IMG/VR virus record: IMGVR_UViG_3300044621_001281
Coordinates: 1-41,368 of that record
Strand: one strand, 5' to 3'
Origin: a virus
Length of the DNA stretch: 41,368 bases
The position numbers were made by a program, and so were the translations under genes. Below are positions 34,519 to 40,801 of this stretch, piece after piece. Each line of letters begins with the position of its first letter. The first letter of the stretch is position 1. The notes below the pieces were generated by a model. That model had not been told where the DNA came from. It searched no databases and worked only from the letters and a program-made list of their open reading frames with translations.

Positions 34519-35028
34519 TTGGCTAAGACTCAAATGCCTATTGATGGCAAACTAGGAAAAGAATACAAAATTACTTCTCCATTCGGTTGGAGAATTCATC
34601 CTATTGAAAAGTACCGCAAGCACCACAATGGCGTAGACCTATGGGGAGCAGCAAAGAAAATCTATTGCGAAGCTTGGCATGATGGAACAGTTGTTGCTGC
34701 TGGTACATCAAAGCTAAAGAACCCAGATGGCTCTCTTGGTGGTGTTGGATGGTATGTCGATGTTCGATCAAAAATAAATGGCAATTGGTATGTAAGTAGA
34801 TATGCACACCTAAGAGAAAACTCTTTAAATGTTATTAAAGGTCAAAAAGTTGAAGCTGGAACTGTTCTCGGAATTATGGGAAACACAGGAGCTTCTACTG
34901 GAAAGCATCTTCATTTTGAAATCTGCAGAGGTAAAACTCACAGATGGACTAGTGACGGAAGCAATTTTGTTGACCCATTAGCGTTCATAAAGCAGGTAAT
35001 TACAGAAGAGTCTGAATCAATGGCTTAA
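34519..35028 (+). CDS. M23 (LytM) metallopeptidase endolysin
   Basis: 169 residues, TTG start with AAGGAA. Zinc ligands: His36 and Asp40 (HHNGVD), and His132 in KHLHFE; His97 (YAHL) and His130 complete the site. It would cut peptide bridges of peptidoglycan. No signal peptide, so holin-dependent release is expected. About 60% of residues are visibly shared with the next gene, indicating tandem duplication. It lacks the LysM domain of its neighbour. Confidence 0.85.
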   Translation: MAKTQMPIDGKLGKEYKITSPFGWRIHPIEKYRKHHNGVDLWGAAKKIYCEAWHDGTVVAAGTSKLKNPDGSLGGVGWYVDVRSKINGNWYVSRYAHLRENSLNVIKGQKVEAGTVLGIMGNTGASTGKHLHFEICRGKTHRWTSDGSNFVDPLAFIKQVITEESESMA

Positions 35029-35088
35029 ATCAACTTTTTAAACATACATAAAATGGATTTACTTATTTTTATATGTTAAGGAAAGATT

Positions 35089-35871
35089 ATGGCAAAAGCT
35101 CAGTTCCCTGTTGACGGCGTCCCAGGAAAAAGTTGGAAAGTTACATCTGCTTTCGGGTGGAGAATTCACCCTGTAAAGAAGACTAAGAAGCATCACAATG
35201 GCACAGATATTTGGGCTGGCGTAGAGCCTTGCTACATTGAGTCTGCTTATGATGGCAAAGTTATTACTTCTGGTCCATCAAACAAGAAGAAGGCAGATGG
35301 AGAGCCAGACGGCTTTGGCTACTACGTAACTGTGCTCTCTCAAGTAGATGGTGTCTGGGTTACCAATCTTTACGCACACATGGCGAAAGACTCGCTGAAG
35401 GTAAAAGTTGGTCAGAAGATTGAAGCTGGCACAGTTTTGGGTAAGATGGGCGCTACTGGCATGGTGACTGGAAAGCACCTGCACTGGGAGACATGGAAAG
35501 GAAAGACACACGGATGGTCAGCAGATGGCTCAGGATTTTTGGACCCAATCGAGTTCTGCAAAGCTGTAATTGCGAAAGAGAAGGCAGTTGCAAATGCACC
35601 GTCAGCAACACCAGAGACTGTACTTGCAAATCCAGAGAAGACAACCGCGAAAGCTCCCGTCACGAATCCATCAGCCTCTGCTCCTGCGAAAGCAAAACCG
35701 TCTACCACTCCTGCGGCTGCGGCAACTGCTAACGTATACAAAGTTGTATCTGGAGATACTCTTACTAAAATTGCGGGGCGTCACAACACAACTGTTGCAG
35801 TGTTGGTAAAGCTGAACGGTATTAAAGACCCGAACAAGATTAATGTCGGTCAAGTAATTAAATTGCCATAA
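35089..35871 (+). CDS. M23 metallopeptidase endolysin with LysM domain
   Basis: 260 residues. The M23 domain (1-160) repeats the upstream paralog: His36/Asp40 in HHNGTD, YAHM, and GKHLHWE. A linker rich in Ala, Pro and Thr (165-215) leads to a C-terminal LysM (about 217-260, [19 protein letters not shown]), which binds N-acetylglucosamine chains. Complete by length. AAGGAAAG precedes the ATG. Confidence 0.88.
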
Positions 35872-36384: not shown

Positions 36385-37089
36385 ATGGGAAAAAAGATAA
36401 TCAAGTTTGGTAAAAGCCATCCATATCCACCTTTACCTGTTCCAATAAGAAATGTCGTACCCGAGTGGTATAAAAAATCTCCTCGCTTTATTGATGGCAA
36501 GGAAGCAAGCATTATCTATACCGAACGAGGAGCACGTTCTAACATCGGAATGAAGATGTGTGTTCCATTCTTTGACCCTATGATTTCTGGATACACGGCG
36601 ACCCTCTGGCAGGATGTACAAGTTACAAGACGTCCTGATGGATTAAAACTTGATTGGCTTGTCGATCCAACTCCAATTAATGATAGAAGTAATCATGGAA
36701 TGGAGTTGTTGCCAATCCCAGCAGGGCACGTTCCTCAACAGTATGCATGGGTAACCCCATTCTCAGTTGAAACCCCACCTGGTTATAGTGTTTTGATTAC
36801 CCATCCTTTTAATCGATACGACTTACCTTTTACAACTTTAAATGGCATCCACGACTCCGATTCAATTATGCCTCACGGTCATCTTCCTTTTTACATCAAA
36901 GATAACTTTGAAGGTGTAATTCCAGCAGGAACTCCTATCTATCAAATTTTCCCATTTAAAAGAGACTCTTGGGAATCAGAGTATGACGAAACTCTAGGAG
37001 AAAAAGCAGAGAAACGAATGTGGGACGGTATGACGAAAATGTTTGGTCATTACCGAAATAACATATGGCATAAGAAAGAGTACAACTAA
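36385..37089 (+). CDS. DUF6065-like protein next to the halogenase
   Basis: 234 residues. IRNVVPEWYKKSPRF, then MKMCVPFFDPMISGYTATL and later SVETPPGYSVLITHP and DLPFTTLNG match the DUF6065 pattern, which I recall beside tryptophan halogenase genes in phages and bacteria. Function unknown; possibly supports or uses the halogenated product. Coupled to the halogenase by TAATG, strong evidence for joint action. Confidence 0.75.
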   Translation: MGKKIIKFGKSHPYPPLPVPIRNVVPEWYKKSPRFIDGKEASIIYTERGARSNIGMKMCVPFFDPMISGYTATLWQDVQVTRRPDGLKLDWLVDPTPINDRSNHGMELLPIPAGHVPQQYAWVTPFSVETPPGYSVLITHPFNRYDLPFTTLNGIHDSDSIMPHGHLPFYIKDNFEGVIPAGTPIYQIFPFKRDSWESEYDETLGEKAEKRMWDGMTKMFGHYRNNIWHKKEYN

Positions 37090-38672
37090 TGGACCTTCGG
37101 GATATAAAAAATGTAACCATCTTAGGCGGGGGCACTGCTGGATGGCTTGTTGCACTATATGCCAAAACAGTTTTGCCAACAAAAAAAGTAACTCTTATTG
37201 AATCTGACAAAATTGGCATTCTTGGTGCTGGAGAAGGTTCAACTCCCCAACTAATTTCTTTTCTTGACGTACTTGGAATACCAATATCGAAGCTTATTCG
37301 TGAAGCATCTGTAACTATTAAACAAGGAATTAAATTTACAAATTGGCATAACGGTGGAGACAGTGATTGGTTCTATCATCCATTTGTTGGCTTTGGCAAT
37401 TGCGCAGCGGTTGAGATGAGTCTTGAGCGTTATGTTGCTGGAACTCCTGCAATTTTTTCCCAAGCAGTAAAAACACAAGACCCTCAAGAAGAGTGGTGTT
37501 TTGTCACAAGACTATGTGAACAAAATAAAGTTTCTTTTAAACCACTAAAGAATCAGATGTATTCAGGTGAAGACCCGATTTTTCAGTTTGACAAGATGGG
37601 AGCTTTTTCTCTTCATTTTGATGCCCGTAAATTGGCTGCTGTTTTATCTGAGATTGGGCAAGAAAGAGGTATTGTTCGAGTTGAAGGTATGGTCGAAGAC
37701 TATAAAACAGATGAAGAAGGATACGTTACAGAGCTGACATTAGAAGATGGAAGTTCTGTAAAAACAGATTTTGTTTTTGATTGCTCAGGGTTTAATTCCT
37801 TCTTTTCTAAAAAGTTTAATAGCGAGTGGATTTCTGCTGAAGACCATTTGACTGTAAATGCTGCAATGCCATTCTTCCTTGAAATGGACGAATCTATCCC
37901 TTCTTACACTGAATCTATTGCTATGAAGTATGGATGGGCTTGGAAGATTCCTCTACAACACAGATACGGCTGCGGATATGTATTTAACAGTCGAATGATT
38001 AATGATGAAGAAGCGAAAGCAGAAATTGTAGAGTGGCTTGGTTATGAGCCCGAATGGCCTCGAGAAAAATCATTTGCATGGACTCCAGGTTATTTAAAAG
38101 AACCTTGGAAAAAGAATGTATATACAGTAGGTCTATCTGCAGGATTCGTTGAGCCACTTGAAGCAACTTCAATTTGGACAACAATTATTGACTGGACTAG
38201 TAACGTACTCGGTAACACCGAGCTTATGTATCTTAAAGACCAAAGCATTCAAGACCACTTCAACTCTCATTGGCGTAGTAGTCAAGATGAAGTTATTGCT
38301 TTTGTTTATGCTCACTATATGGGAGAGCGAACTGACACAGAGTTTTGGAAGCATTACACATACGATAATGCACCAGAACTTGCAAAAAAGTATTTAGACA
38401 TTAATAATAAACGTTCCTTTATTATTACTGATTTTATCGGGCATAACTTCTTTGAAATAGATTCATGGTCTTATATTCTTATAGGACACAAGAATAAAAA
38501 TTTCTATGAAAATCATAAGTTGTTTGATTTTTACAACTTTACAAGAACTTTTATGGATCATAGGTATGGTTCATTTAAAACATTAATACAACAAGTAGCA
38601 GATTTTGAAGCAGTCTCCCACAACGAATTTTTAGATGCTATGAGAGAGGAGGGGATCAATGAAAACCAATAA
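37089..38672 (+). CDS. Flavin-dependent tryptophan-type halogenase
   Basis: 527 residues. GGGTAGW (13-19) is the FAD motif, GEGSTP follows near 48, Lys78 in SVTIKQGIKF is the essential lysine that guides HOCl, and WAWKIP (283-288) is the halogenase signature. GFVEPLEATSI (352-362) carries the conserved Glu/Ser pair. Length equals PrnA/RebH. It needs reduced flavin from a reductase, not seen here. A cyanophage homolog (VirX1) has been reported to iodinate aromatic substrates; whether this one uses tryptophan, another aromatic or protein residues is open. It is followed by a coupled membrane protein. Confidence 0.9.
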   Translation: MDLRDIKNVTILGGGTAGWLVALYAKTVLPTKKVTLIESDKIGILGAGEGSTPQLISFLDVLGIPISKLIREASVTIKQGIKFTNWHNGGDSDWFYHPFVGFGNCAAVEMSLERYVAGTPAIFSQAVKTQDPQEEWCFVTRLCEQNKVSFKPLKNQMYSGEDPIFQFDKMGAFSLHFDARKLAAVLSEIGQERGIVRVEGMVEDYKTDEEGYVTELTLEDGSSVKTDFVFDCSGFNSFFSKKFNSEWISAEDHLTVNAAMPFFLEMDESIPSYTESIAMKYGWAWKIPLQHRYGCGYVFNSRMINDEEAKAEIVEWLGYEPEWPREKSFAWTPGYLKEPWKKNVYTVGLSAGFVEPLEATSIWTTIIDWTSNVLGNTELMYLKDQSIQDHFNSHWRSSQDEVIAFVYAHYMGERTDTEFWKHYTYDNAPELAKKYLDINNKRSFIITDFIGHNFFEIDSWSYILIGHKNKNFYENHKLFDFYNFTRTFMDHRYGSFKTLIQQVADFEAVSHNEFLDAMREEGINENQ

Positions 38673-39030
38673 AACACCCAAGAATTACCAATACAAAGAC
38701 CCAAACTTTTACACAAACCAAGAAGTCTTTGACGGAAATGTGAAGAAACATTTCCAGTGGGTCAAAGCACTAAAGACGATGGGTCAACGCAGTTATTGGA
38801 ATATCCCCAATACAGTCGAGTTCTTAGCATTTACTACTAAAGCTCTTATTATTATTCCAGGTTTACTCTTTGGAGTTTCAATTTGGTGGCTCTACATCTT
38901 TGCGCTTATCACAAGTGTTCTATTGATTTGGTCAGCAACTATTAAAACACTGCCAACTCTTATCTGGTTTAACATTCTTTGGGCCACTCTTGCAACAACA
39001 TTTTTGGTAAAGCACTTTATGGGACTGTAA
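38659..39030 (+). CDS. Membrane protein in the halogenase cassette
   Basis: 123 residues. After a hydrophilic start, spans at about 55-72, 73-92 and 98-118 are hydrophobic (ALIIIPGLLFGVSIWWLYIFALITS...). Its ATG overlaps the halogenase end by 14 bases, with GAGGAGGGG as ribosome-binding site. It may anchor the cassette at the membrane or transport a product. Confidence 0.7.
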   Translation: MKTNKTPKNYQYKDPNFYTNQEVFDGNVKKHFQWVKALKTMGQRSYWNIPNTVEFLAFTTKALIIIPGLLFGVSIWWLYIFALITSVLLIWSATIKTLPTLIWFNILWATLATTFLVKHFMGL

Positions 39031-39972
39031 ATGGATTTTTCAAAGTTTCCTTACATTAGAGACTTAGGCGGACATGTAATTGATGTTCGTCGATTAATTG
39101 ACCCCAACAATAAAAATTGGGGCGCAACTAATCTTTCTATTGGAAACTATAAAAATAAGTACGTTGGCGCTTTGCGCTCTAGTAATTATGTGATTATGCC
39201 TAATGGAAGCTATACAGTTACCGAGGGAAATCTGATTACTTCAAAATTATACTGGGGCGAGTTTAATAAAGATTGGAAACTAGAAAAGCTCAGGCAAATT
39301 GATACTTCTATTGCAGGAGATTTAAAGCGAGGCTTAGAAGACCCAAAAGTTTTTTATCGAGATGGCGCATGGCATATGACATGTGTAATTTTAGATAAAG
39401 AACAAATTCCATATGCACGTATGGCAGTTGCTCGTCTTGACCCAAAATGCACCAAGTTTGTAAGTTTTAAAGTTTTAGCTGGTATGGATACCCAGCGTCC
39501 AGAAAAGAATTGGATGACTACCTACGAAGAAAATCCATACTTTGATTTTATCTATGGTCCTAATGCCACAGTTCAAAACAACATGATGACAATGCTTTTC
39601 TCTGACGTCAGACAACTCTCTCAACTACGAGGAAACACTAATCTTCTGTCCCTTGAAGATAACACTTATCTTGGGGTTATGCATAGAACATTCATCAAAA
39701 ACGAAGCAAAGTGGGCACCAGAAAGATTTAGTACCCAGAATGCTTCTCAAAGAAACTACATTCATTACTTCGTTAGGTTTGATCTTGAAGGCAGTATTTT
39801 GGAAGTTTCAAAAGGTTTTCAATTCTTTAAATCTGGGGTTGAGTTTGCAGCTGGTTTGGTCGCCCACAAAGATAATTTCTTAATTAGCTTTGGTAGAGAA
39901 GATGTTTCCAGTCATATCGCTGTAATGCCAAAGGACTTAGTTCTCAAATCACTATCCCCAGTAGGGTACTAA
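39031..39972 (+). CDS. GH43/GH130-like beta-propeller protein
   Basis: 313 residues. GLEDPKVFYRDGAWHMTCVI and VEFAAGLVAHKDNFLISFGRED look like blades of a five-bladed beta-propeller as in GH130 phosphorylases and related proteins. The ATG is directly after the previous stop. It could modify or bind a glycan, which together with the halogenase suggests decoration of a surface sugar or small molecule. Catalytic acids cannot be fixed by eye. Confidence 0.6.
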   Translation: MDFSKFPYIRDLGGHVIDVRRLIDPNNKNWGATNLSIGNYKNKYVGALRSSNYVIMPNGSYTVTEGNLITSKLYWGEFNKDWKLEKLRQIDTSIAGDLKRGLEDPKVFYRDGAWHMTCVILDKEQIPYARMAVARLDPKCTKFVSFKVLAGMDTQRPEKNWMTTYEENPYFDFIYGPNATVQNNMMTMLFSDVRQLSQLRGNTNLLSLEDNTYLGVMHRTFIKNEAKWAPERFSTQNASQRNYIHYFVRFDLEGSILEVSKGFQFFKSGVEFAAGLVAHKDNFLISFGREDVSSHIAVMPKDLVLKSLSPVGY

Positions 39973-40218: not shown

Positions 40219-40423
40219 AACTACTCAGATAGTAAAAATAGACAACGCCCCCTTAGAGTATATAACTCTTAGAGAGCGTTGCGATGCTTGTGGGCATCAA
40301 GCTTACTATCGTGTTACTTTTGAAGCAGGACATCTATTCTTTTGTAGACATCACTACATGAAACAAGAAGAAGCCTTTTTTGAGAAAGCTTTAGATATCG
40401 TTGATGAGTCTGAATTACTTTGA
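40211..40423 (+). CDS. DUF7455-like zinc protein
   Basis: 70 residues. RERCDACGHQAYYRVTF and LFFCRHHYMK match an actinobacterial small-protein pattern (DUF7455), often near sigma factor genes in the host. CxxC...CxHH binds zinc. Overlaps the gene before and the convergent SpeD-like gene by 9 bases. Confidence 0.75.
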   Translation: MTETTQIVKIDNAPLEYITLRERCDACGHQAYYRVTFEAGHLFFCRHHYMKQEEAFFEKALDIVDESELL

Positions 40424-40801
40424 AGGCTTTGTAAAGTCTTCGATAGTAAATCCATCAGTTCTTTCAAGAACTACATAGGTGTAGTCAATAAGACCAAGGT
40501 TGCTTTCAAGATTATCTAGAACTTGTTTTACAGGAAGCTCTCCACATGTATACAAATCAAACTGCACTTTAGAGGGTTTATTCTCATCCCAGATGTGCAT
40601 AGCAATGTGAGAGGTTTCGATCATAACTACTGCAGTTAGACCGCGGTTACCTTCTGCTGTTACGTAGGAGGCATAAGGTCCTTGAATGACCTTCATATCG
40701 ATGGATTCAACTAATGAGCGCATCCAGTCGATAACGACTTTTTCTTCTGTCGGAGGATTTAGTGTCCACCCGTTTACTAGTAAATGGTTGTGTAGAGGCA
40801 T
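40415..40801 (-). CDS. speD: SpeD-like S-adenosylmethionine decarboxylase homolog
   Basis: 128 residues. GNRGLTAVVMIETSHIAMH and FDLYTCGE follow the class 1b SpeD proenzyme. In the family the chain is cut before a Ser (Glu-Ser) to form pyruvoyl; here the order is Glu62-Thr63-Ser64-His65, so Ser64 is kept but the preceding residue is Thr. Cys86 fits the conserved Cys. Phage SpeD homologs with altered specificity (arginine or ornithine) have been reported, so the substrate is uncertain. Role in polyamine synthesis for DNA packing or host physiology is likely. Confidence 0.8.
   Translation of the reverse strand: MPLHNHLLVNGWTLNPPTEEKVVIDWMRSLVESIDMKVIQGPYASYVTAEGNRGLTAVVMIETSHIAMHIWDENKPSKVQFDLYTCGELPVKQVLDNLESNLGLIDYTYVVLERTDGFTIEDFTKPSK

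Follow-up and report, generated by a model that had tools for sequence, protein, structure and literature searches.

Viral halogenases have so far been treated as stray auxiliary metabolic genes whose natural substrates are unknown. VirX1 of cyanophage Syn10 (PDB 6qgm), a flavin-dependent halogenase (FDH), is guided by Lys79 (PMC8407142), and the chemistry summarised for it provides the basis for expecting a viral FDH to need reduced flavin (PMC8407142). Here we describe a cassette of four genes, A to D, in a 41-kb virus record from an uncultured freshwater phage (the window, i.e. the whole stretch of 41,368 nucleotides that was analysed; positions are counted on this full stretch unless another contig or locus is named). 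The second gene encodes protein B, which, like VirX1, is phage-encoded and belongs to PF04820; B residues 6–468 can be aligned with VirX1, and Lys79 of the latter is the equivalent of Lys78 in B. We found a pair comprising B and the small membrane protein C in many uncultured phages, and this recurrence suggests that viruses possess a system, so far little known, that halogenates something at or near the cell membrane.

Table 1. Genes of the cassette and of two kinds of related locus, with the evidence for each assignment
Feature	Position	Strand	Evidence
A: DUF6065-like protein, predicted beta-clip (dUTPase/dCTP-deaminase-like) fold, 234 aa	36385..37089	+	phrog_7084; PF19541 in relatives; AF2 model
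B: putative flavin-dependent halogenase (PF04820), 527 aa	37089..38672	+	Pfam; solved FDHs; Lys78 and Glu358
C: virus-only, predicted three-span membrane protein, 123 aa	38659..39030	+	hydropathy; viral-contig loci; halogenase pairing
D: GH130-like, predicted five-bladed beta-propeller (glycoside phosphorylase/mannosyltransferase type), 313 aa	39031..39972	+	GH130 profile matches
L357, L359, L360: collagen-like genes, S8-protease-like gene, methyltransferase, TPR glycosyltransferase, second halogenase	G001:99000-118000 (L357)		
L227: sulfotransferase, Asp/Asn hydroxylase, APS kinase with adenylyltransferase-like domain, DUF2061; directly upstream of a halogenase–C pair	L227:1140-3523		

The four ORFs are present as first described, all on the plus strand, and the genes do overlap or touch at every junction: A and B have 1 nt in common, B and C overlap by 14 nt, and C and D abut. 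All four are under purifying selection, with dN/dS values of about 0.03–0.15 for pairs with unsaturated dS. Three related long contigs, G001–G003, carry most of the tested genes that flank the cassette. Since G001 contains a Pfam-confirmed WhiB gene and WhiB is regarded as an actinophage marker (PMC10202952), the host is probably a freshwater actinobacterium. A tandem of M23 peptidase genes lies upstream of the cassette (34519–35871); the second of the two includes LysM. On the minus strand, at 40415–40801, there is an S-adenosylmethionine decarboxylase gene; its protein is 100% identical to that of L027, and the neighbouring genes differ.

B matches the Pfam Trp_halogenase profile with an E value of 8.6e-99 (profile positions 1–443 of 458), and the solved FDHs that it matches include PrnA, RebH, Thal and VirX1. 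The catalytic Lys of PrnA (Lys79) is matched by Lys78 in the alignment, and Glu358 is the equivalent of PrnA Glu346, by position count on the B–PrnA alignment. Among 77 non-redundant viral relatives of B, the catalytic Lys is kept in all and the active-site Glu in 76. The WxWxIP motif, which reads GWAWKIP at 282–288 in B, retains its first Trp in 77/77 relatives and its second in 73/77, and the GxGxxG flavin motif is present (G13, G15 and G18). The earlier statement that the halogenase keeps Lys78 and the signature motifs thus holds, and comparison of the active site with VirX1 and PrnA reveals no loss of the catalytic Lys. For B, dN/dS is 0.08–0.15. A single-sequence structure model was unusable (pLDDT 35). 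The best reading of B is as an active flavin-dependent halogenase, one that would add chlorine or bromine, with halogenation predicted from the family to which it belongs.

The preliminary description called B a tryptophan-type halogenase, which is apt as a family name but not as a statement of substrate. The position of PrnA W455, which stacks on Trp in the C-terminal lid, is occupied by Y, I, I and V in close relatives of B, in a weakly aligned region (that of PrnA F454/W455, which includes the Trp-binding lid residues). Given this variation among close relatives, 'tryptophan halogenase' is better not taken as naming the substrate, and free tryptophan would not be expected to fill that role. 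No flavin reductase gene (PF01613, Flavin_Reduct) was found in the window, as had been noted, or in eight related records; given the chemistry of the family, reduced flavin would need to come from the host.

The best cellular relatives of B are gammaproteobacterial chromosomal halogenases (37–44% identity), and the nearest named full-length relative is that of Actinomycetia phage DSL-LC01 (28.9%). Neither C nor D was found in 80 cellular loci encoding relatives of B, and A gave a single match there. The DSL-LC01 halogenase (L019:8001-9572) has no GAGEG motif, and Asp replaces the active-site Glu. Another halogenase, at L004:6001-7350, shows an in-frame loss of about 65 residues (173–237), which is either a deletion or an assembly artefact.

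C was initially described as a three-span membrane protein, and hydropathy supports the membrane segments. Two features of its family are invariant: a Lys in the first hydrophobic segment and a T-x-K-T-x-P-T loop. We found no match to C in Pfam, PHROG, NCBIfam or PADLOC, and none in 50,697 isolated phage records, among them Syn10 and the complete DSL-LC01 genome. A scan of 84,980 cellular genomes, based on two 9-residue patterns that distant relatives could escape, gave 55 pattern matches, none of them related to C, and a cellular source was rejected on this basis. Among viral contigs, 412 loci of C passed in one scan, and 540 of the first 600 pattern matches in a second scan were C loci. Within the limits of the pattern scan, C is a virus-only protein with hundreds of loci in viral contigs. 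At L406:5353-7737 and L430:5382-8027, large proteins with signal-peptide-like starts are encoded directly after C; these are possible substrates.

A halogenase lies within 5 kb of C in 40/48 and 39/46 non-redundant loci from two samples, which comprise the best-scoring 80 loci per scan rather than random ones and which, although chosen with different C alignments, have some contigs in common and are not fully independent. For control loci, defined by D, the corresponding number is 2/65 non-redundant loci (Fisher P about 7e-27 versus C loci). When we considered distinct adjacent pairs, allowing gaps of up to 250 bases, 63 of 73 were in B-to-C order, and all 63 of these overlap or abut, as judged with an ORF caller that takes the longest start and is thus biased toward overlap. 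The coupling described for the B–C junction is therefore recurrent. Since tight packing is common among phage genes, overlap by itself says little, and the strength of the B–C case lies in recurrence. Evolutionary distances among B and among C proteins covary (Mantel rho 0.34; null maximum 0.15 in 999 permutations). B and C also occur apart in the same record, 38 kb from each other in G007 and 10 kb in G010, and seven short C contigs (4.6–27 kb) contain no halogenase. These data are best read as indicating a conserved core of B and C, with A as a frequent third partner and D outside the core. Another family, K6, of about 235–250 aa, is often found beside A, the halogenase and C (17/46 C loci in the second sample; e.g. 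L052:1658-2362 and L358:4125-5619, with a duplication in L358). A relationship of K6 to A or to dUTPases was unsupported (P 0.014 and 0.47).

When other phages were searched for the four-gene order, A-B-C-D was found to recur in three distinct relatives: it is conserved in L003/L004 and L027, and appears as A-B-B-C-D in L212. The preliminary description went further and took all four genes to form one functional unit. This claim fails, as C is missing from L001/L002, where the order is A-B-D (C is also absent from that 111-kb record), D recurs without A-B-C, and 2/65 D loci come with a halogenase; hence, the four-gene unit was rejected as the core. At the equivalent site in DSL-LC01 and G007, a methyltransferase gene is followed by D, again without A-B-C. 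D is a resident of the site, not a member of the core unit. The description of D as a beta-propeller protein agrees with its GH130-type matches, one from a relative of D against GH130 (E 1.3e-4) and one from the D family profile against beta-1,2-mannobiose phosphorylase (7fip; E 8e-5). The GxEDP motif of GH130 is kept in D as GLEDP, and the DSL-LC01 homologue is annotated as a beta-mannosyltransferase. Assignment of D as a predicted GH130-type propeller is well founded, albeit from a weak match, and its role is likely sugar-related.

A matches phrog_7084 with an E value of 1e-36. PF19541 (DUF6065) is matched by 25/76 relatives of A at E values up to 0.5 (best 3e-6) but not by the window protein itself, so the original label, DUF6065-like, is valid at the level of the family only. 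The family is large in viruses (577 of the first 600 pattern matches). An AlphaFold2 model built from 76 sequences has a pLDDT of 95, and its best 50 PDB matches are all dUTPases or dCTP deaminases, with VIA Z scores up to 10.1. Profile comparison of A with dUTPases by hhalign gave an E value of 9e-5 in one comparison, with motifs 2, 3 and 4 in register; among relatives of A, D157 is kept in 75/76 and Q187 in 76/76. Two dUTPase features, the Tyr of motif 3 and motif 5 (C-terminal and glycine-rich), were not found in the A family, and for this reason an orthodox dUTPase was rejected. A is modelled as a dUTPase-fold protein that is probably not a dUTPase. Given the confident fold model, A is not obviously a surface-modification protein; we found no evidence for a glycan link, and the earlier notion of a glycan-type partner does not suit it.

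Homologues of A adjoin RNR in HF2, thymidylate synthase in HRTV-7 and NrdAB in S-RIM4 (haloviruses and a cyanophage), and in L274 one lies between helicase and primase. A often occurs in two or more copies. At L030:3151-6249, a NodU/TobZ-type carbamoyltransferase gene has an A paralogue on each side, and the opposite strand carries a third A close by. We found no literature on DUF6065; the predicted dUTPase-like fold comes from the present analysis.

Other halogenase loci were compared with respect to neighbouring genes. In each of G001–G003, a second halogenase gene immediately follows genes for collagen-like fibres, a methyltransferase and a TPR glycosyltransferase, and the subtilase in the G001 run is Pfam-confirmed. 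The one halogenase that was found in G007, and likewise in DSL-LC01, belongs to the tail-fibre locus. In six loci (L198, L201, L202, L225, L260 and L273), C, halogenase, glycosyltransferase and fibre genes occur together. Elsewhere, B-C lies near genes for sulfotransferase, APS kinase, Asp/Asn hydroxylase or 2OG oxygenases. These neighbours point to modified proteins, glycans or exported compounds. Surface modification is still a plausible role, since genes for tail fibres, glycosyltransferase, methyltransferase, sulfotransferase and hydroxylase lie beside other copies of the halogenase. PADLOC defence models gave no match for A, B, C or D, which argues against the cassette being a known defence system.

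Our main reading, to which we assign a probability of roughly 0.55 with its mechanism included, is that B and C make up a viral halogenation unit of two components, which A frequently joins as a third member. B would be cytosolic, with FADH2 provided by host flavin reductases. Following the chemistry of the family, O2 and halide would yield hypohalous acid at B, and the observed residues Lys78 and Glu358 would direct electrophilic halogenation of an aromatic group. C, predicted to be a three-span inner-membrane protein whose translation may be coupled with that of B, would either tether its observed partner to the membrane or present a membrane-associated substrate. A may serve as a ligand-binding or hydrolase-like protein with the predicted dUTPase fold, and D may be an accessory glycan enzyme of the site. 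Judging from neighbouring genes, the product would most likely be a modified envelope, exported or virion-fibre component, not free tryptophan. More tentatively, at somewhat below even odds, A-B-C could be a dedicated virus-only machine, present in hundreds of uncultivated phages, in which the halogenase works only when complexed with C and acts on a membrane, envelope or virion target during infection.

Several other explanations can be weighed against this one. A-B-C might be a cassette for fibre or surface decoration, which halogenates an aromatic residue or a glycan carrier on tail fibres and thereby alters adsorption or masks the virion. The second halogenases of G001–G003 and the sole halogenases found in G007 and DSL-LC01, all in fibre loci, are in line with this, as are the six loci that join C, halogenase, glycosyltransferase and fibre genes. 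However, fibre genes are absent from the neighbourhood of many B-C loci; a membrane-bound step, as implied by C, sits poorly with virion fibres, which are cytosolic; and fibre regions are insertion hot spots. We regard this explanation as unlikely, if a serious one. We see a smaller chance that B, as a member of the halogenase superfamily, acts as a flavin monooxygenase and hydroxylates rather than halogenates, with C still coupling it to a membrane substrate. Many PF04820 proteins remain uncharacterised, and oxidative tailoring enzymes are encoded at several loci; on the other hand, 77 sequences show very little variation at the two halogenase catalytic residues or in WxWxIP, and halogenase activity is proven for VirX1, a viral relative (PMC8407142).

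It is improbable that the role of C, instead of tethering, is to bring in halide for the enzyme, as a small channel or carrier would, or to export the halogenated product. The invariant Lys of the first segment and the T-x-K-T-x-P-T loop would fit transport, and fresh water is low in halide, which also counts in its favour; yet C has only three spans and no similarity to known transporter or channel families. Chance packing of unrelated cargo genes would accord with the variability of the region, where D and C come and go among relatives, but it is hard to square with the conserved order and overlap that recur in distant phages and at unrelated sites. We consider it very improbable overall: strongly disfavoured for B-C, and possible for D. 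The boldest and least supported rival, in which we place hardly any belief, is a nucleotide system, with B halogenating a pyrimidine and A managing the nucleotide pool to yield halogenated phage DNA or a nucleotide signal. It draws on the predicted dUTPase-like fold of A with motifs 2–4 in register, on the A homologues beside RNR, thymidylate synthase, NrdAB or helicase/primase (L274), and on the finding of no ordinary dUTPase (PF00692) in G000–G003. Against it, C is a membrane protein, the neighbours are mostly protein or glycan modifiers, A has neither the motif-3 Tyr nor motif 5 and is often multi-copy, and pyrimidines are poor FDH substrates.

Under the reading of B and C as a halogenation unit, the fixed virus-only membrane partner means that the search for a substrate should turn to lipids, envelope components, exported compounds and fibres. 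A further outcome of our analysis is a definition of two viral families that are widespread and otherwise without an assigned role: C and the DUF6065-like A.

How, then, does the cassette relate to known systems? A is related to DUF6065 (PF19541)/phrog_7084 through 25/76 relatives, with the window protein falling below the model. It resembles dUTPases and dCTP deaminases in its predicted beta-clip fold and in motifs 2–4, but differs in lacking motif 5 and the motif-3 Tyr. D is like GH130 phosphorylases and beta-mannosyltransferases in its profile match and GxEDP motif; it is distant from them, and its activity is not readable from sequence. With PrnA and the tryptophan halogenases, B has in common the fold family, the catalytic Lys and Glu, GxGxxG, WxWxIP and the pocket His/Phe/Trp, whereas the position of the stacking Trp (W455) varies among close relatives. 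Its identity to the Syn10 halogenase locus, which is not necessarily the VirX1 gene, is low (tblastn, 28.9%), and Syn10, the phage of VirX1, has no match to C. We found no report of a halogenase–membrane-protein pair in phages in a literature search that lay largely outside subscription papers. Thus, while viral FDHs are already known from VirX1, the pairing of such an enzyme with C is apparently new.
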